Origin: Pirellulaceae bacterium
Lineage (GTDB): Bacteria > Planctomycetota > Planctomycetia > Pirellulales > Pirellulaceae
Assembly: GCA_030748485.1 (NCBI GenBank)
Contig: JASMLW010000620.1
Coordinates: forward strand, 1 to 34,466
Direction of reading: 5' to 3'
Length of the DNA stretch: 34,466 nucleotides
The notes under the pieces were generated by a model. It ran no database searches, was not told where the DNA came from, and saw nothing but the letters and a program-made list of their open reading frames with translations. This document shows positions 17,303 to 30,466 of the stretch, in pieces; position 1 is the stretch's first letter, and each line of letters starts with the position of its first letter. The translations under genes were made by a program, and so were the position numbers.

Positions 17303-18016
17303 TTGGCCAACGACAACCGACCAACCGACCAGCCGAGTGACGAGCGAGTTAGTGTCGATCAAGCGAGCGGTGGCGAAGTCGACGACGCGGCGAGCCCAGA
17401 TGCGTCCACTGGTCGCTTCATTGCGATTCGGCGGAATTGCATGTTGTCGCTGCTAGGTTTCATTTCCTGCGCGGCCGCGTACGACTACGCGGTTGCCCGT
17501 CGCCAACCAGCGCAACTGAACAACGCGCTGGTCACTTACGCGAGCGGACGCGCGAATCAGCGGGGCCGCCAAGCAAACTCGGCCGACATCCGGGATGTCG
17601 CCCAGCGCAAACCAACGCGAACTTTGCGCGGCTACATGTACGACGTCGAATATTTTGAGTGGCAGTCAGCCGTTCCTTGGCGGCAATATTATTGCGCCGT
17701 CGTCTACACGAAGTATGCGGACAAGCGCACCTACTACACGCACTTCTTCAACCAGCCGATCCCCAATGAATTCCTGCCAAAAGAGATGCGGAAATCGCAA
17801 CCGCGGCGTCAGCCCCACCCACAGTTGAGTGAAGATGAGAAGCGGGAGCAGATGCAGATGATGATGCATCGCGACGCGCAGTACATGGACTTTTACACCA
17901 AGCCGCCGCCGGACATCGCCGAAGAACTGCAGAGGAAGAAAGAGGAGGCCGAAGAGCGGGCCGAGCCGCAAGAGTCCGACGAAACTCAACAAACTCTTTG
18001 CGGTCTGGATAGTTAG
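17303..18016 (+). CDS. hypothetical single-pass membrane protein
   Basis: This 237-residue protein has no recognised family. A polar, acidic N-terminus (1-38) leads to a membrane segment (about 47-64), followed by a mostly hydrophilic domain with aromatic clusters (YDVEYFEWQSAVPWRQYYCAVVYTKY) and a charged, glutamate/arginine-rich C-terminal helix likely to form a coiled coil. I chose TTG at 17303 because an AGGAG site lies seven bases upstream (17291-17295); an in-frame TTG at 17234 lacks one. The orientation of the segment is uncertain. The gene converges with the YiiX-like gene, overlapping it by four bases at the stops. Confidence 0.6.
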   Translation: MANDNRPTDQPSDERVSVDQASGGEVDDAASPDASTGRFIAIRRNCMLSLLGFISCAAAYDYAVARRQPAQLNNALVTYASGRANQRGRQANSADIRDVAQRKPTRTLRGYMYDVEYFEWQSAVPWRQYYCAVVYTKYADKRTYYTHFFNQPIPNEFLPKEMRKSQPRRQPHPQLSEDEKREQMQMMMHRDAQYMDFYTKPPPDIAEELQRKKEEAEERAEPQESDETQQTLCGLDS

Positions 18017-19353
18017 GCTATCGCTTCGCTGATCAGGCTGCGGGCCTGACCGTCGCGCTGAATGGTGGGATTCAGTTGAGGCGCGTAGCAGAGGATGGGA
18101 TCAAACCGCAAGCGGTCGACCCCCATGCGGACGAGGTCAAACCCGGCCAGCGTCGGTCTCCCCGCTCGCCGTTTCAGCGGTATCTCAAACTCGCCCATGC
18201 CATCGAACGAACGATAAACGACTTCCGTGCAGACCAGGCGGTCGGAACGTCGAAAGTCAAAATCGAAGTCGTACCCCTTCCCTTCGTGCGCGATACCCCG
18301 CGCCAAGCCGGCGGCGATCTGCGGCGCACTCATTTGCGGGCGCAGCACGACGATCGAGTCCGAACCGAACGGCGAAGCCATCGGGCGGATACGGACGCCG
18401 TCTTTCTGAGACTCGAGCACCCGCGGCGCGTTGTCGTCATCCGCCAGTTGGCTCCACCGCGAAACAACGTTCTCGTGGTCGCTGATGCCCAGATCGACCA
18501 GGTCGCTGGCGGCTCCTAAATAGAGCGCGGCGTGCGGCCAGTAGCCGGGCAGGAAATAGTTCGTCAGCGCGTACTCCTTGCGGACAACCAGGACGTCGCC
18601 GGGGCGCAATTGGTCCTGCACGGCGGTCGCAATCTCATCGGGCAGCCGCGGCCGATGCCCGCGGCGCAAATATTTTTCCGCCATCAACTCGCCGCTCAAC
18701 CGTTGCAGCCCATACATGGCTTGGTGGAAAACTGAACGCACCGTGCGGCGCGCTTGAGCGGACCGCATGCGAACTCTCGCCTTGGTGAAATCGGCGACTG
18801 TCACATCGACCCGGTGTCGCAGCCGCTCGACAATCTCAAACACCTCGGCGAGCGGACTGCGGCTCGCCAGCCCGCGGAGCGTTTGCTCTTCCTTTTGGAA
18901 ATACCGAATCGCGTGGTACATCCGCCAAGCGTGGCGAGTACTGACCAGCGATCGCTGCACCGTGTCGTAGACCCCTGGCGGAATACCAAAAGTCGGTGCG
19001 GGCTGGTTGAGTTTGGCCCGCACCAGCGGAAACGGATGGATGGTCTCGCGAAGAAAGCGAGCCGCATCGACCAGCAACAGGCCGGCTCCAAACGCGGTCA
19101 GCAGGGCTTCCGGCCAAGCCTCCGAATCGTCCGACACCTCCTCGCTGAGCGTGTCGATGACCTCCCAGAGCGCATTGCGCGTCTGCCAGTAGGAGACGAG
19201 CAGACCGAGCGATTGTTCTTCTTCGACCGGAGTGAAATACCCACGCCCCTGCGGATCCATGCCGTCGACCAGTTGTTCCGCGGCCGTTTGCAGACCTGCG
19301 AAGTATCGCGCGATGTCGACGACGGCTCGAGCACTGTCGCAGATCAACTCCAT
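18013..19353 (-). CDS. YiiX/YebB-like permuted papain-fold protein with long helical N-terminus
   Basis: This 446-residue protein has a C-terminal domain (about 245-425) like the YiiX/NlpC-P60 circularly permuted papain superfamily, whose members cleave amide or ester bonds. RPGDVLVVRKE opens the domain, GYWPHAALYLG carries the catalytic His (about 274) and LVCTEVVYRSFD carries the catalytic Cys (about 375), in the His-before-Cys order that marks the permuted group. The N-terminal half is helical with no recognised family. The substrate could be a lipid or peptide amide; this is not shown. I chose ATG at 19353, with GTGGAG six bases upstream, over a TTG at 19452: the longer version would run through the end of the upstream gene and its extra 33 residues look like an out-of-frame reading of it. 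Confidence 0.82.
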   Translation of the reverse strand: MELICDSARAVVDIARYFAGLQTAAEQLVDGMDPQGRGYFTPVEEEQSLGLLVSYWQTRNALWEVIDTLSEEVSDDSEAWPEALLTAFGAGLLLVDAARFLRETIHPFPLVRAKLNQPAPTFGIPPGVYDTVQRSLVSTRHAWRMYHAIRYFQKEEQTLRGLASRSPLAEVFEIVERLRHRVDVTVADFTKARVRMRSAQARRTVRSVFHQAMYGLQRLSGELMAEKYLRRGHRPRLPDEIATAVQDQLRPGDVLVVRKEYALTNYFLPGYWPHAALYLGAASDLVDLGISDHENVVSRWSQLADDDNAPRVLESQKDGVRIRPMASPFGSDSIVVLRPQMSAPQIAAGLARGIAHEGKGYDFDFDFRRSDRLVCTEVVYRSFDGMGEFEIPLKRRAGRPTLAGFDLVRMGVDRLRFDPILCYAPQLNPTIQRDGQARSLISEAIA

Positions 19354-19378
19354 CGCATGCTCCACGAGTTGCCAGCCG

Positions 19379-20167
19379 TTAACCGGGCGGAGCGCATTCG
19401 GCGACCCGCCAGTGCGACTCACTGATCTCGCCACCGTAGAAGTCGCGCTCAAGTTTTACCTCAATCGCGACGGTGCGGCGAGCGCCATTCTCCTCGAACG
19501 AGTAGTGGTAGAGTTGCAGAATCTTGTCGCGGCGGAGTCCCGTCTTTCGCTCGATCCGGAGATTGCGGACGAACTGGATCTCGCCGTTCGGGTGTTCCGC
19601 GACATACTTGAGCGGGGGCCGGGCGAAGAACGACTTCATCCGCACGTAGGGGTCTGGAGTGGCCATCATCCGAGTTTCCAGATCCATATCCTTGTCACTG
19701 CCCGGCATCTTCATGGCGGGTGTCTCGGCGTAGTAGTTCTCGAGATTCGATCCTTGCGGCTGCCGTTCGTGGTAATAGAGCTGGAATTCAAACGCCTCGA
19801 TAAACTCCTGCTGTTGCACCATCTCAAACCAGTCCACGGCGTGACCGCGAGCCTGTGAATAGAGTGCTTGCTGACGGCTAAAGTGCCGCACGGGAGCGGA
19901 AGCCAGCACGAAGCAGCTGACCGTCATGCCAATGTAGGCGGCCGTCGCGCCCATCAGTCGGTGGTCCCGGCGGACGCGGAGAATGGCGATGATCGACACG
20001 ACGATGCCGATCATCGGCAAAGACCACAACAGCGGACTCACAAACCCAGAGAAAGAGAGCAGCCCGAGGATTAGCGAGACAATGCAGAACGCACTGATAG
20101 CCTGGTAATCTTCTTCAAAGCGGTCTTCGATTCCTTTGACCGTGACTTGATTCTCAACCACTGACAT
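19379..20167 (-). CDS. hypothetical membrane protein with extracytoplasmic domain
   Basis: This 262-residue protein has about three membrane segments in its first 95 residues (ISAFCIVSLILGLLSFSGF, LLWSLPMIGIVVSIIAIL and TAAYIGMTVSCFVLASA), resembling the DUF4190-type membrane module. A soluble C-terminal domain of about 165 residues with no recognised family follows, probably extracytoplasmic. The ATG at 20167 has a GGAG site; an upstream in-frame start at 20191 is possible. It is followed 25 bases later by the YiiX-like gene, and the pair is probably co-transcribed. The upstream CvpA-like gene ends 100 bases before it, so this may be a separate unit. Confidence 0.65.
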   Translation of the reverse strand: MSVVENQVTVKGIEDRFEEDYQAISAFCIVSLILGLLSFSGFVSPLLWSLPMIGIVVSIIAILRVRRDHRLMGATAAYIGMTVSCFVLASAPVRHFSRQQALYSQARGHAVDWFEMVQQQEFIEAFEFQLYYHERQPQGSNLENYYAETPAMKMPGSDKDMDLETRMMATPDPYVRMKSFFARPPLKYVAEHPNGEIQFVRNLRIERKTGLRRDKILQLYHYSFEENGARRTVAIEVKLERDFYGGEISESHWRVAECAPPG

Positions 20168-20267
20168 GAACTCAACTCCGCTTGACGCCAACCAAACTCA
20201 CCGGCCGCGACGGGGCATTCAACGGGCCGCGGCAATCTCTTTCCTACGCTACCCTCATAGATCGGGT

Positions 20268-20861
20268 TCATTCGCTTGCGCGAACACGGAACTCCTCTTC
20301 ACCTTCGAAGTTTTTGCGACGATGAAAGTGTTTGGCCGTCCAAGTCTTCCCTTCGTCAAAGGTGTCGCTACCCGCAAAAACGCCGGTTGAGCGACTCCGC
20401 ATGAATCCCACCCACAAGCGATCGGGGGCCATGCCCAGAAAAACACCCGCATTACTGCTGGCGAAGGCTCCGCCGAATGGCGTTGACTGCACCGGGGCGG
20501 TGTGCAACGTCATGGTTGTGAAGCAGATCACAATCCAGGCGAGCCAGATAGCCAAGATAGTGCGGCCGGCCATTTCGATCGGCATGATGAACTTCACCCG
20601 TTCGAGGCTGGCGAACTCTGAAATCAAGCGGAACAGAATGAGCGAGATGGCGAACAGGCCCCACATGATCAGGAAGTCGTAAAGGTAGGTGAACGACGCC
20701 TCTTGGTTGGCAATCGCCGTCGCGATCGGTTCGTAAAAACTGACAGCGATCATCGCTGCAAACAGCACATTGATCAGCGTCAACAGATTGTTCCACAGCC
20801 CCTGGAACCAGGAGAGCCCCAGAACGACGAGAAAGATCAGCAGCAGGACAAGAGTTAACAT
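20268..20861 (-). CDS. CvpA-like membrane protein
   Basis: This 197-residue protein has about four membrane segments within its first 125 residues and a polar C-terminal tail. The spacing of hydrophobic segments and the pattern LGLSWFQGLWNNLLTLINVLFA at the front resemble the CvpA family (named for colicin V production), small membrane proteins whose role is only partly understood. The similarity is moderate and no diagnostic motif settles it. The ATG at 20861 opens 34 bases after the GspE-like gene, suggesting it belongs to the same transcript as the two secretion-type ATPase genes. Confidence 0.6.
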   Translation of the reverse strand: MLTLVLLLIFLVVLGLSWFQGLWNNLLTLINVLFAAMIAVSFYEPIATAIANQEASFTYLYDFLIMWGLFAISLILFRLISEFASLERVKFIMPIEMAGRTILAIWLAWIVICFTTMTLHTAPVQSTPFGGAFASSNAGVFLGMAPDRLWVGFMRSRSTGVFAGSDTFDEGKTWTAKHFHRRKNFEGEEEFRVRASE

Positions 20862-20895: not shown

Positions 20896-22671
20896 TCAGG
20901 CCTTGAGGACTCGTTGCAGTTCATTCAGCGACGTCACGCCTTGGGCGACGAGCAGGATGCCTTCTTCCTGCAACGTGCGATTGCCGCCCTGGCGAGCAAG
21001 TTGGCGGAGGACTTCCAGTTTTGGTTGACTGACAAGCGCCTGTCGAATGCGGTCGTCGACCTCCAGGAATTCGAAGATCCCCGTCCGCCCGGAATAGCCG
21101 ATGCCGCCGCACTTGGGACAGACTTCGGGTTGTCCTCTTTTCTCCTCACCAGGAGCCGGCGGTTGCCATTCCTGGTAGAGGTGTTGGACGCGGCCCGGCG
21201 GGATGCCGAGTTTCTGCAGCAGTTGGGGCGGCGGCTCAAACGCCTGCTTGCACTCCTCACAGAGTTTGCGAACCAACCGCACATTGACAACGGCTGTAAT
21301 CGATTTCGCGAACAGAGCGGCGTCCGCCTTCAGCAGCAACACCCGCAACAACGCCTCGACCGATTCCTTGGCGTGCACGCCCGCCATGATCACGCGTTCT
21401 TCTTCAGTCGCTTCCACACACAGCATGCGGACCGTCTCGGCGTTGTGCAGTTCCGGAACAACGACAGCGTCCGGTTGCTTCAGCATCAAGCCGGGAATCA
21501 TCGTGTCGGGCGTTTCCCCGGCCGCCGCATTGAACGTGTTCACACCGAGATTCTCGACGTAGGGATTTGAAGTCCCCACGTTTTCGATGGAGATGAAATC
21601 TCGCAGCATGCGGTCGGCGGCGTTGATCGACGCGGCCCAGGTGGTCGTGAATCCACCTTGGGGCATGGACGAGATCAGCACCATGCTGCCTTTCGAATTG
21701 AGCACGCCTTTGAGTTTCTCGGCCATCTTCTCGCGCATGCCGAGTTGTTCGAGCGTCTTCAGATCTTTGCGCTCGTAGAGCACGTGCAGGACGACGCGTT
21801 CGCCGGTCTGTGTGCCCTGCGTCTTGAGTTCAGCCTTGTGTTTACCCTGGTACTTGATGCCCATCTGCGCCTCTTGGCGCGACCTGCGGTCCTCCGGATT
21901 GAGATTGCAGATCAGCTTCAGAATCGCCAGCATCACGTCCGAGCTTTCGCGATCGCGGGGATCGACGTTGTGCCAAACGCCGTCGATCTCGTACCGCACG
22001 GCGACCGACTCCTGGGTGTAGTCCAACATGGCCCGCTCGGCGCCGCGCGCGAACAAGTCGGCGATCAGCTCCTTCGCCGTGACGTAGCCCTCGGACTGAC
22101 GAGCCTGAATGAGGTTGGATTGATTCTCTGGCCCCGTGGGAGCGGCGATGGCTTGGATTTCGACAGGCGGTCCTTCCTCGTAGGCCATCTTGACTTGCTT
22201 TTGCTTCCGTCGCCCGCGTCGGCCGAAGTTCGCAAAGTACTCCTTGATGTGGCTGGGCGTCAGCACTTTTTGGTCGCTGACAACGCGCGCGTTGCGCATG
22301 AAGATGTAAATCATCAGCGGGACGATATAGGCGAGCAGGACGACGGCGAAACCGGCAAAGAAGATCGGGATCAACATGCCGGCGATCAGAAACGCCGCCA
22401 GAAACGAAAACACAACAATCGGATTCCACACGGTGTGCGGCATCTGAATGCCGGGTCCGATCTCCTGTGAGTCGCGGTTGATCCAGTCGGTCGAGCAGAC
22501 CCAGCAGATGAAGACGAGCCAATAGAGCAGCAGCTTCCACCAGGCCAGATAGAAGCCGGGGCCGCGACTGAGCGGATCGCCGCTGTAGGCCGGCCAATCC
22601 TGCGCGCCGGCTGTCGAGGCGACGAGCAGAACGAAGGAGGCGCCCAGCGCCAAGATCAAAGTGCGTTTCAT
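20896..22671 (-). CDS. membrane-anchored GspE/PilB-like protein with degenerate ATP-binding motifs
   Basis: This 591-residue protein has a signal-like N-terminal segment (1-23), further membrane segments (about 45-60 and 85-125), then a GspE/PilB-type domain (about 190-591). The tetracysteine zinc site (CEEC at 471-474, CPKC at 518-521) and GYSGRTGIFEFLEVDD are typical. The nucleotide site is eroded. Where the family has GPTGSGKTTT, residues 335-344 read SMPQGGFTTT, with Phe341 in place of the essential lysine. The Walker B region reads VVVPELHN instead of VGEIRD-like, and the Asp box reads IENVG. His433 remains. ATP hydrolysis therefore looks unlikely; a scaffold or regulatory partner of the preceding PilT-like ATPase is more likely. 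The ATG at 22671 shares its A with the preceding TGA, so translation is probably coupled. Confidence 0.88.
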   Translation of the reverse strand: MKRTLILALGASFVLLVASTAGAQDWPAYSGDPLSRGPGFYLAWWKLLLYWLVFICWVCSTDWINRDSQEIGPGIQMPHTVWNPIVVFSFLAAFLIAGMLIPIFFAGFAVVLLAYIVPLMIYIFMRNARVVSDQKVLTPSHIKEYFANFGRRGRRKQKQVKMAYEEGPPVEIQAIAAPTGPENQSNLIQARQSEGYVTAKELIADLFARGAERAMLDYTQESVAVRYEIDGVWHNVDPRDRESSDVMLAILKLICNLNPEDRRSRQEAQMGIKYQGKHKAELKTQGTQTGERVVLHVLYERKDLKTLEQLGMREKMAEKLKGVLNSKGSMVLISSMPQGGFTTTWAASINAADRMLRDFISIENVGTSNPYVENLGVNTFNAAAGETPDTMIPGLMLKQPDAVVVPELHNAETVRMLCVEATEEERVIMAGVHAKESVEALLRVLLLKADAALFAKSITAVVNVRLVRKLCEECKQAFEPPPQLLQKLGIPPGRVQHLYQEWQPPAPGEEKRGQPEVCPKCGGIGYSGRTGIFEFLEVDDRIRQALVSQPKLEVLRQLARQGGNRTLQEEGILLVAQGVTSLNELQRVLKA

Positions 22672-23843
22672 CAAAGGATTCCAGGCTGGGAGACGTTGAT
22701 ACCCTTCAGCGCCATCTTCAACGCGTCCGGGTTCGGCGCCACTTCAAAGGCCGTCGGTCGGTCGATCAGTTGGTCGTCGATCAGTTGCTTCAAACTCATC
22801 GTAAAGTCCTGCATGCCCTCGGCGATGCCGATGCGGATCGCGTCCGGCAACTTGTGGTCATCGCCTTCGAGCACCAGTTTGCGGATCGTCGGCGAGAAGA
22901 ACATGATCTCCACCGTCGGCACGCGGGGCACATCGTCGCGAATCGATCGCAACAGCTTTTGCGAAACGATGCCCTTCATGTTGAACGCGATCGCGCTGCG
23001 AATCGCACTGTGCATCTCCTCGGGGAAGAGGTCGAGTATCCGGCCGATCGTCGTCGACGCGCTCGAAGCGTGGATCGTTCCGTAGACCAAGTGACCCGTC
23101 TCGGCCGCGTGGATCGCCGTCATGAACGTCTCCTCGTCGCGCATTTCGCCGACCAGCATCACGTCCGGGTCTTCCCGCACCGCGTGCTTCATGCCGATCG
23201 AAAAGTCCTTCACGTCCATCCCGACTTCGCGCTGATTGATCAGGCACTTGTCCTGAGTGAAGACGTATTCAATCGGGTCTTCGAGCGTCAGGATGTGCTT
23301 GCGGTATTTCGAGTTGATGTAGTTGAGCATCGAGGCGATCGTGGTCGACTTGCCCGAGCCCGTCACGCCCGCCAGCAACACCATTCCTTGATCGTAGTTG
23401 CAGAGACCTTCGACGGCGGCCGGCAGATACAGTCCATCGAACGGCGGGATGTAGTTATTGATCCGCCGAGCAACCAGACCCATGCGGCCCAGCTGCGTCA
23501 GCATGTTGACGCGGAAACGCCACTCCGTCCCCTCCACATCGCAAACGTGGGCGAAGTCGCAGCCGCCGTCTTCGTCGAAGATCTTCCGATTCCGTTCATC
23601 CATCATCGGGAACAGCAACTCGACCATTTCCTCCGCGTCGATCTCCGCGCGATTGAGCGGGCGCAGTTCGCCGCGGACACGCACCATCGGCGGCGCGTCG
23701 ACTTTCATGTGAAGGTCGCTGCCCTCCAGCTTGACCAACGCGCGAAAGTACTTGTCAACCTCGAGCTCTTCCCTTTTAGAAATGAGCCGAGCCTTCATCG
23801 CTTCGGCTTGAGAGATCATTTGGTTTTGTTCGGTTGTCGCCAT
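22671..23843 (-). CDS. PilT-like secretion/twitching ATPase
   Basis: This 390-residue cytoplasmic ATPase belongs to the PilT branch of the type II/IV secretion ATPase superfamily, which in type IV pili drives filament retraction. All nucleotide motifs are intact: GVTGSGKST (Walker A, 159-167), TLEDPIEYVF (Asp box), DPDVMLVGEMRDEET (Walker B) and VYGTIHASS (His box). The N-terminal domain has the usual SDLHMKVDAPPMVRVRGEL. The length is slightly above the typical 340-370. The ATG at 23843 has a GGAG site six bases upstream; ATG at 23858 is possible but lacks one. The gene sits 20 bases after hisF and overlaps the GspE-like gene by one base. No pilin, prepilin peptidase or secretin gene is in the window, so a standard pilus role is not established. 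Confidence 0.93.
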   Translation of the reverse strand: MATTEQNQMISQAEAMKARLISKREELEVDKYFRALVKLEGSDLHMKVDAPPMVRVRGELRPLNRAEIDAEEMVELLFPMMDERNRKIFDEDGGCDFAHVCDVEGTEWRFRVNMLTQLGRMGLVARRINNYIPPFDGLYLPAAVEGLCNYDQGMVLLAGVTGSGKSTTIASMLNYINSKYRKHILTLEDPIEYVFTQDKCLINQREVGMDVKDFSIGMKHAVREDPDVMLVGEMRDEETFMTAIHAAETGHLVYGTIHASSASTTIGRILDLFPEEMHSAIRSAIAFNMKGIVSQKLLRSIRDDVPRVPTVEIMFFSPTIRKLVLEGDDHKLPDAIRIGIAEGMQDFTMSLKQLIDDQLIDRPTAFEVAPNPDALKMALKGINVSQPGIL

Positions 23844-23863
23844 GCTCTGCTCCGCCATCAACG

Positions 23864-24631
23864 TTAGGTTCGTACAGGAATGCCGCGCTCGGCCATCACC
23901 TGCTTGGTTTCCTGGATCGTGTATTCGCCGAAGTGAAAGATGCTGGCCGCCAAGGCGGCGTCCGCTTTGCCTTCACTGATCGCGTCCGCCAAATGCTCCG
24001 GCTTGCCCGCGCCGCCGCTGGCGACGACGGGAATCGTCACCGCCTGGCTGACAGCGGCCGTCACCTCCAAATCGTAACCCTCTTTGACGCCGTCGCAATC
24101 CATTGAGGTGAGGACTATTTCACCCGCGCCGAGCCGTTCCACCTCTTGCGCCCAGGAAACCGCCTCCAGACCGGTCGGCTGGCGGCCGCCGTTGATGTGG
24201 ACTTCCCACACCTCCTGGCCGTCGCGTTCGACCCGTTTGGGATCAATATTGACGACGATGCACTGGCTGCCGAATCGCCGCGCCGCCTCAGCGACGAATG
24301 GGGGGTTCTGGCAGGCCGCCGAATTGATCGAGACTTTGTCGCTGCCGGCGTTCAGCAGAGCTCGAATGTCGTCCGCCGTGCGGATCCCGCCGCCAACGGT
24401 CAGCGGCATGAATACCTGCTCAGCCGTCCGCCGCACCACGTCGATCATGATGTCGCGGCCTTCATGGCTGGCGGTGATGTCGAGAAACACCAATTCGTCC
24501 GCGCCTTCTTCCTCATAGCGCGCGGCTACCTGCACCGGGTCGCCGGCGTCGCGCAGATTGACGAAATTTGTCCCCTTCACAACGCGACCACGATCGACGT
24601 CTAGACAGGGAATCACACGCTTCGCGAGCAT
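23864..24631 (-). CDS. hisF: imidazole glycerol phosphate synthase subunit HisF
   Basis: This 255-residue cyclase subunit of the histidine pathway uses ammonia from HisH to make imidazole glycerol phosphate and AICAR from PRFAR. The TIM barrel starts with [20 protein letters not shown], with catalytic Asp11; the second catalytic acid, Asp130, is in IVVNID. The phosphate-binding loops TVGGGIR and VASGGAG are intact, as are [14 protein letters not shown] and a C-terminal [12 protein letters not shown]. The length is normal. The start is ATG at 24631. No hisH or hisA is next to it; instead it is followed 20 bases later by the PilT-like gene. Splitting of the his pathway into scattered genes is common in planctomycetes; the transcript link to secretion ATPases is more surprising. 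Confidence 0.97.
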
Positions 24632-28224: not shown

Positions 28225-30279
28225 CTATTGCATCTGCTGCATCTGTTGCATCTGCGCCTCGCGGACTTGGTCCATCACCTCAGACATTGACGCGCCGACA
28301 ATCGCGACCCCGGCGCCGACGATCCCCGCGCAGACACAGCACGTCAGGAAATAGGTCAGGAAGACCGCTCCAAATGAACGGCCGACGCCAATACCGTGAG
28401 CCCGGTCGAATCCAATTCCGAGCAGGACGAAGTGCCAAAAGAAACCGGCTAGTCCGACAAGTTGCGCGACGATCGGTATCGGCGGAATGACTGCCAGCGC
28501 GGGTTGCATTGAGCCAGAGACATAACAGACGACACGCAGCGTTCGCTCAAAATCTCCCTTAGCTCCAAACGCCATCAACATGACATGAAGCATGGCTGAA
28601 AGAATCATGACGCCAACGATCCAAGCCACAAACCCAAAGATCAGTCTAATACCGACGCCAACGATCATCGACACAAACGCGCCGCCGGCTTGCGCAATGT
28701 CTCCACCTCCCAACAACAACAACGGCACGACGAGCACAAGACTCCAAACAGTCCCGATCACTGCGGAGATCCCGAAACCGGTGAGTCCGTAGCCGATTGG
28801 GCCACCCATTCCGCCGCTAAGCCGCATTGCCGAGAACGCTTCCATCGGATTGAAAAGCACAGCGGTCAGCGTCGCTAGAAAACCTTCGCCTCGCTCCCAG
28901 GGCAAACCGGACCGGCTGCCCATGCTGCGTTTCTTTGTGGGCTTTGGCGCGGCGGCGGGAAGGGGAGCCGGCGACAAAGTCGACCCGCCGGCAGCCGGCG
29001 TGTCGCCCCAGATATCGTCGCCGCCCTGACCGGATCCGCCGAGCGGCGTGAGATCGCCCGATCCGCCAAGTGGCGTGAGACCGCCCGATCCGCCGAGTGG
29101 CGTGAGCCCATCAGATTCTCCGAGCGGCGTGAGTCCGTCGTCCGTTCCCAGCGGCGTGAGACCTCCGCCGCCCAGCGGAGTCAAGCCGCCTCCACCGCCA
29201 CCGCCCAGAGGCGTGAGTCCCGACTCCGATCCGCTGTCGCCTAATGGTGTCAGACCGGGCGACGGACCCAAAGGTGTCAGTCCGGAACCAGGTGATTCGC
29301 TGGGTGGAGCCAGCCCCATCTCTTGGTCGCCGCCGAGCGGTGCGAGTCCTCCGGCTAAACCTCCAGCGGCCGCGCTACTGCTCGGCTGCGGAATTTCGAA
29401 GATCTGCGAGCACTTGGGGCACTTTCCCTTCTTGCCGGCGGACGATGCGGGCGAACGAACTTCGTGAGAGCAGCCCGGGCAAGCAAAGACGATCGCGCCA
29501 CCCGCTGGAGCGGCCGGCGCGGGCAGCGGAGCCTCGGTCGCCAGCGGTTGCGACTTGTCGGGGATCTTTACGACCAACTGGCAGTGCGGACACTTGCCTT
29601 TCTTGCCGGCGGTCGATGCGGGAGAACGCACCGTGCCGCGACAACTGGGACAAGGGAATTCGATCGGGCTTGCTGAACTGGCCTCCTGGACAACGTTCGA
29701 CTTGAGGGGAATCTGCACGACCGATCCGCAGTGCGGGCACTTCCCTTTCTTGCCGGCGGCCGAGCCGGGCGTCTTGACGACCTTTGCGCACGAGCCGCAA
29801 TGGAACTCGATCTTGTTCGGCTTGGAGGCGACCGATGATTCTTTCAGCGGGGCGCTGGTTGAGGTGAGCGGAATCTGCACCACCGCTGTGCAGTGCGGGC
29901 ACTTTCCCTTCTTGCCAGCGGCGGCGGCCGGCGTCTTCACGGTTGAGCCGCAGTGCTCGCAGGCAAATTCAATCTGGCCGCCCGCCGCGGCCGGAGCCGG
30001 CTTCGCAGCGGCCGACGTCTTGGGGATTTGGACGACCGCCTGGCAGTGCGGGCACTTGCCCTTCTTGCCCGCGGCGGAGGCCGGAGTCTTCACCGACTGG
30101 CCGCACTCTCGGCAAGGAAACTCAATCGTCTTAGAACTCGACGCCGGTGAAGGCGCAGAAGAAGCGGACGGAATCTGAACCACCGCCTGGCAGTGCGGGC
30201 ACTTGCCCTTCTTACCCGCGGCGGTGTCTGGAGTGCGCACCGTCTTCGCACACTGGGCGCATTGAAATTCGATCGGCAA
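28225..30279 (-). CDS. six-zinc-ribbon, LTPLG-repeat, Yip1-like membrane protein
   Basis: This 684-residue protein is built from three parts. First come six zinc ribbons of about 35 residues (at about 3-37, 52-86, 103-137, 157-191, 206-240 and 263-297), each reading IxFxCxxC...AGKKGKCPxC...IP. Second is a low-complexity stretch (311-415) with nine LTPLG units and one LAPLG. Third is a membrane domain (about 465-665, five or so segments) like the Yip1/YIF family, ending in a short MQQMQQMQ tail. The start is TTG at 30279 with an AGGAG site seven bases upstream, and the first ribbon then begins immediately; an in-frame extension to 30447 lacks these. The ribbons may bind nucleic acid or protein from the cytoplasmic side. 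Function is unknown. Confidence 0.85.
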   Translation of the reverse strand: MPIEFQCAQCAKTVRTPDTAAGKKGKCPHCQAVVQIPSASSAPSPASSSKTIEFPCRECGQSVKTPASAAGKKGKCPHCQAVVQIPKTSAAAKPAPAAAGGQIEFACEHCGSTVKTPAAAAGKKGKCPHCTAVVQIPLTSTSAPLKESSVASKPNKIEFHCGSCAKVVKTPGSAAGKKGKCPHCGSVVQIPLKSNVVQEASSASPIEFPCPSCRGTVRSPASTAGKKGKCPHCQLVVKIPDKSQPLATEAPLPAPAAPAGGAIVFACPGCSHEVRSPASSAGKKGKCPKCSQIFEIPQPSSSAAAGGLAGGLAPLGGDQEMGLAPPSESPGSGLTPLGPSPGLTPLGDSGSESGLTPLGGGGGGGLTPLGGGGLTPLGTDDGLTPLGESDGLTPLGGSGGLTPLGGSGDLTPLGGSGQGGDDIWGDTPAAGGSTLSPAPLPAAAPKPTKKRSMGSRSGLPWERGEGFLATLTAVLFNPMEAFSAMRLSGGMGGPIGYGLTGFGISAVIGTVWSLVLVVPLLLLGGGDIAQAGGAFVSMIVGVGIRLIFGFVAWIVGVMILSAMLHVMLMAFGAKGDFERTLRVVCYVSGSMQPALAVIPPIPIVAQLVGLAGFFWHFVLLGIGFDRAHGIGVGRSFGAVFLTYFLTCCVCAGIVGAGVAIVGASMSEVMDQVREAQMQQMQQMQ

Positions 30280-30466
30280 TGTCGTTCTCCTGACCGAGCC
30301 GCACCCCGAGTACGGCGAATCGCAATCCCCAGTCGCGTCCTTTAGATTTCCAGAATACCAAGCAACTCGGCGCGGGTGAACACATCTTCCGGAACAAAGA
30401 ATCGAAAACGTTGTCGTGGAATCGGGCGCCCTCGCGATGACCGACATCGACTGCTATGGTTGCGGG

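Follow-up and report, generated by a model that had tools for sequence, protein, structure and literature searches.

The window, the whole 34,466-nt stretch of Pirellulaceae DNA analysed here, encodes a GspE/PilB homologue whose ATP site has been lost throughout the order Pirellulales, and whose gene has stayed under strong purifying selection and overlaps that of an intact PilT-type ATPase (Table 1). This combination suggests that the protein is probably a fixed scaffold or regulator and not an engine. The reading preferred here, held at about even confidence, is of a GspE/PilB family member that is anchored in the inner membrane and catalytically dead, descended from an active-looking ancestor of the type seen in sister orders and serving as scaffold or allosteric partner of PilT and, in its anchored form, of a CvpA-like membrane protein. 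An earlier note on this DNA had proposed a pseudo-ATPase; the order-wide loss, the selection, and the intact neighbour bear this out, and the term is used below.

Table 1. Features of the pseudo-ATPase and its neighbours, by position in the window.
Feature	Position	Strand	Basis or remark
DUF4190-like membrane protein	19379..20191	(-)	second gene downstream; PF13828 weak, under cut-off
CvpA-like membrane protein	20268..20861	(-)	downstream neighbour; PF02674 2.2e-6, just under cut-off
Pseudo-ATPase, membrane-anchored degenerate GspE/PilB homologue	20896..22671	(-)	591 aa from ATG 22671; Pfam T2SSE 5.5e-44
C-terminal metal-binding domain, tetracysteine C472/C475/C519/C522 intact	21109..21261	(-)	CEEC...CPKC
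His-box relic RVIMAGVHAKE (canonical HMVFSTVHAND)	21364..21396	(-)	sequence comparison
Walker B relic PDAVVVPELHNAET (canonical PDVVMIGEIRDxET)	21433..21474	(-)	reads PDAVVVPELHN
Asp-box relic ISIENV (canonical ITVEDP)	21577..21594	(-)	sequence comparison
Walker A relic SSMPQGGFTTTW, Lys replaced by Phe	21637..21672	(-)	P-loop SSMPQGGFTTT
Three membrane helices, residues 45-71, 80-101, 105-130	22285..22542	(-)	AF2 helices, hydropathy, alignment
Signal-peptide-like segment ending in A-x-A-Q type site	22603..22671	(-)	consensus AQ; helix in model
PilT/PilU-family ATPase	22671..23861	(-)	TIGR01420 379.9 bits vs cut-off 319.1; GVTGSGKST, GEMRDEET intact
hisF	23864..24631	(-)	conserved upstream neighbour; mostly 75-88% identity in Pirellulales loci

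The pseudo-ATPase gene is an uninterrupted frame at 20896-22674(-) if a TTG at 22674 is counted (592 aa), but the ATG at 22671 is the better start; it shares one base with the stop codon of pilT (TTGATG). Tabulated residue numbers such as G341 and P338 are counted from the TTG and are one higher than in the ATG numbering, in which the Walker A Phe is F341. In other orders, too, hisF precedes many of the loci, and its linkage is probably a matter of synteny only; the DUF4190-like gene is a neighbour in part of the Pirellulales loci.

In a Pfam scan, residues 201-588 match the T2SSE profile (PF00437) with 150.8 bits against a cut-off of 24.9. The match spans the N2E and RecA-like core domains that define the superfamily, whose solved members include Thermus PilF, Vibrio EpsE, and Geobacter PilB. 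Scores against the narrower NCBIfam profiles fall far below their cut-offs, both for the GspE equivalog TIGR02533 (170.5 vs. 630.25) and for the PilB equivalog TIGR02538 (145.5 vs. 675.65); the PilT/PilU profile TIGR01420 gives 31.6 against 319.1, the protein having a CM domain and a lost Walker A. On sequence grounds it is a member of the GspE/PilB superfamily by descent, and lies outside the GspE/PilB ATPases by the catalytic motifs that define them.

An AlphaFold2 model (monomer, from an alignment of 27 homologues; mean pLDDT 85.8, pTM 0.66) has a hydrophobic helix at the N-terminus, then three helices long enough to cross a membrane, and a PilB/GspE core. Its top PDB matches are Thermus PilF/PilB structures, with a TM-score of up to 0.86 on the target for the Thermus PilB core. 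Of the segments that the earlier note had placed ahead of the core, the membrane helices are found in model, hydropathy, and alignment alike and the signal-like segment in model and alignment; the profile match, the model, and the CEEC...CPKC cysteines agree with its statement that the fold and zinc tetracysteine are kept. A24 of the signal-peptide-like segment is almost invariant among the 27 long homologues. The membrane helices carry conserved WV-x(3)-DW-x-N-x-D and WN motifs and are followed by a basic stretch, a topology compatible with a cytoplasmic core. The metal-binding domain is the best-kept part of the protein relative to its intact homologues, with the four cysteines present in 69-72 of 72 homologues.

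The catalytic motifs are degenerate throughout. The P-loop (SSMPQGGFTT) does not fit GxxxxGK[ST], PELHN stands where Walker B should read GE[IVM]RD, and the Asp box (SIENVG) and His box (GVHAKE) depart from their consensus; these sites are lost order-wide, and the second arginine is degenerate too. With all of these affected, normal ATP hydrolysis should be impossible as far as the sequence can tell, and catalytic death is strongly supported. We infer that ATP binding has been lost together with hydrolysis; some residual nucleotide binding may persist. The replacement of the GKT lysine by Phe341 had been read correctly from the letters. The accompanying statement that the Walker A glycines are mostly lost fits the degenerate P-loop but not its last glycine, which is practically invariant (G341 in 71 of 72), and PELHN was likewise a correct reading, though of a motif that still has its glutamate. 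Both this glutamate and the His-box histidine (GVHAK) are retained in the window protein and lost in most relatives.

The relic P-loop is itself under constraint, with P338 in 60 of 72 homologues and residue 342 nearly always L, F, M, or Y, which suggests a structural role. The same constraint, together with the GK[ST] kept by two short tandem copies in the order, could be taken to mean that a remodelled loop still binds nucleotide in another way, through the conserved SxPxGGLTTT. This we consider very unlikely, as Walker B, the Asp and His boxes, and the second arginine have degenerated along with it.

Within Pirellulales, the Walker A lysine position was read in 117 homologues: L occurs in 90, F in 10, M in 8, Y in 5, T in 1, and K in 2, with one gap, so that 114 of 116 members have a residue other than lysine. 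Both of the K-bearing members (2 of 116) are short tandem copies without the membrane segment, in which Walker B is also altered. Thirty more loci, from a class-wide draw with partly overlapping genomes, give the same Walker A picture. Of the family's 241 genomes, 235 have a homologue, and the named relative Bythopirellula polymerisocia groups inside the order, which identifies it as Pirellulales. Because the substitutions recur throughout the order, they are more than chance, and a local mutation or sequencing error is ruled out. Two GspE-like proteins of one genome (G043; L057, 10431-12302, and L058, 9024-10775), with hydrophobic N-termini and intact motifs, were considered as intact orthologues from the order and rejected: they are other, non-orthologous GspE proteins, and the true orthologue in that genome (L222) is degenerate. 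Short tandem second copies are seen at L076 (9273-10604) and L077 (10758-12119); two copies retain GDGK[ST] with an altered Walker B, and the adjacent long partner is degenerate.

Of 121 sites conserved at 95% or more in 23 intact homologues from sister orders, Pirellulales has lost 74 and kept 27. Those kept are mainly in the C-terminal/zinc region, including all four cysteines and the surroundings of RxxRxLC and GxGxxGR. Mean conservation in the RecA part is 0.75 among the intact sister homologues and 0.50 in Pirellulales; for the C-terminal part the values are 0.63 and 0.60. Missing catalytic residues and a less conserved RecA part might point to an ordinary paralogue decaying without function, a reading that is scarcely credible given a frame open across the order, its near-universal presence in the family, the retained cysteines, and dN/dS values of 0.06-0.17 in close pairs (0.27 and 0.34 in two more distant ones; the pair L235/window was left out for a wrong ORF). 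The dN/dS values and open frames rule out a decaying gene, as the earlier note had maintained.

The probable origin of the pseudo-ATPase is visible in other orders of the class, where a hisF-pilT-gspE-cvpA locus encodes the same anchored architecture, with a recognisable membrane segment and intact motifs (GPTG[AS]GK[ST]TTL, GE[IV]RD, and HxND); GK[ST] and GE[IV]RD are present in 42 of 42 such anchored homologues. No published name was found for this intact form. Intact relatives also occur in other classes (L185, L187, L192, L193). The anchor is therefore ancestral, with catalysis lost later, and membrane fusion is ruled out as an innovation of the pseudo-enzyme, of which it had been taken to be a part. 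An intact GKT in the same architecture, which had been expected to signal a local mutation or sequencing error, does exist, but it is confined to other orders and classes and so points to neither.

Eleven relatives from other classes are degenerate in different ways (SGVTTT, SGRTTT, GQTTTL, GRTTLL). When built without the motif columns, the protein's own gene tree unites the two degenerate clades, a grouping that is distrusted because of possible long-branch attraction. In the PilT tree, Pirellulales and its sister orders are together (99% SH-aLRT) with the other classes outside, and the alternative that holds the degenerate clades together is borderline rejected (p-AU 0.055). Catalysis was likely lost independently in Pirellulales and in the other classes. 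One protein from another order (L177, 9493-11358) keeps the lysine (GPKESGKTTTV) and has altered Walker B (DELRD), Asp, and His boxes; its lineage is a possible intermediate.

The neighbouring PilT retains GxTG[SC]GK[ST], EDP[IV]E, GE[MLIV]RD, and the His motif in all loci where these are readable. With the first ATG taken as start, the pilT stop overlaps the pseudo-ATPase start in 34 of 41 Pirellulales loci with the membrane form, in 0 of 18 with the short form, and in 0 of 33 outside the order. This restriction argues for coupled translation in the lineage whose catalytic function was lost. Genes may, of course, also overlap or stay syntenic for reasons besides complex formation. In the genomes checked where the two genes are unlinked, a pilT orthologue with 57-75% identity lies elsewhere (G006, G044, and others), except in G057, which has the pseudo-ATPase and no orthologous PilT (best match 39%; assembly 92% complete). 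The suggestion that the protein serves as a membrane dock for another ATPase is plausible on the gene order, the overlap, and the unlinked orthologues, and is weakened by G057.

In the preferred reading, the ancestor would have been a membrane-anchored, active-looking GspE-like ATPase of the kind still present in sister orders. Its dead descendant would be made together with the active-looking PilT-type ATPase, and its membrane segment would mediate work with the CvpA-like protein. It might hold the PilT-type hexamer at the inner membrane near CvpA, or share a pilus or secretion platform with PilT, acting as a scaffold or as an allosteric subunit without ATP turnover of its own. Contact with PilT and with CvpA is putative, as is the process served.

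A second possibility is that the pseudo-ATPase docks through its conserved C-terminal part on a platform of PilC/GspF type whose gene lies elsewhere. It would block or reset this platform and so restrain pilus extension or type II secretion, instead of partnering PilT. The surviving constraint is indeed mostly C-terminal, and the genome has 18 T2SSF-domain matches and several intact GspE/PilB paralogues. However, the locus has no PilC/GspF (T2SSF) platform gene in any of seven genomes examined, and the tight pilT linkage would be left without explanation, making this unlikely. As a third, the protein might mimic nucleotide-free PilB as a sensor or relay, much as the Myxococcus PilB Walker A mutant does for exopolysaccharide. 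ATPase-deficient PilB can signal independently of pilus assembly (PMC5544727, PMC11656802), but the Pfam scan reports no MshEN-type c-di-GMP domain and no signalling genes were recognised beside the pseudo-ATPase; we regard a signalling role as quite improbable.

The partnership with PilT and CvpA, as preferred here, has to accommodate the loss of the anchor in many genomes of the family. A cvpA-like gene is next to the anchored form in 56 of 60 Pirellulales loci and adjacent in 38 of 39 loci outside the order; it accompanies the unanchored form in just 1 of 41, and this locus (L228) ends at a contig edge. Nearly all genomes with the unanchored form have a separate, general CvpA copy. A membrane subunit supplied by another gene was considered for the short-form genomes, in which no separate membrane module was found. 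By count the association of anchor and cvpA is strong, but independent losses are few: three to four well-supported pairs show the co-loss and no pair shows the reverse, and a sign test does not reach significance. Since homologues without the membrane segment also lack cvpA, the anchor is dispensable and travels with CvpA. The lysine loss is conserved across the order, but the membrane fusion is not, and tethering, which the earlier note had made part of the role, is not essential to what the dead domain does.

Among known systems, GspE (the type II secretion ATPase) and PilB/PilF (the type IV pilus extension ATPase) share the T2SSE fold, the N2E and RecA-like core, and the CM tetracysteine. 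The pseudo-ATPase differs from them in its degenerate catalytic motifs, its N-terminal signal peptide and three membrane helices, and its position outside any pilus or secretion operon. From the intact anchored ATPases of other orders, which lack the pilT overlap, it differs in its motifs. PilU is a PilT-dependent accessory retraction ATPase (PMC6762196, PMC6821130), and so resembles it as a second ATPase-family protein with PilT, although for the pseudo-ATPase the dependence is only supposed. The CM zinc domain is absent from PilT and PilU (PMC5061722); PilU is an ATPase without it, whereas the pseudo-ATPase is GspE-like, degenerate, and membrane-anchored. The Myxococcus PilB Walker A mutant, which still signals without ATP hydrolysis (PMC5544727), is a laboratory construct, while the pseudo-ATPase is a natural, order-wide state.

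More tentatively, PilT-type ATPase, anchored GspE-like protein, and CvpA-like protein could form a phylum-wide planctomycete module in which the second ATPase has repeatedly been made structural and non-hydrolysing, a natural live/dead hetero-motor apart from the canonical operons for pili and type II secretion. A search of the open-access literature gave no account of a GspE/PilB pseudo-ATPase or of the hisF-pilT-gspE-cvpA locus, subscription journals being mostly outside the search. GspE, PilB, and PilT have been studied as homohexameric engines, and a conserved, naturally dead and anchored member working with a live PilT would show the fold to have a structural or regulatory role apart from ATP hydrolysis. 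Planctomycete envelope and surface machines are poorly understood, and such a module would offer a defined test object; as intact and dead orthologues share one architecture and one locus, the transition is directly testable by comparing orders.

Two other genes in the window may be mentioned. A YaeF/YiiX C92-type amidase is encoded beside the cluster (18013-19452), as it is in some relatives (L059, L060, L071, L086). At 28225-30447, a 740-residue protein has a Yip1 membrane domain preceded by several zinc-ribbon-like stretches.
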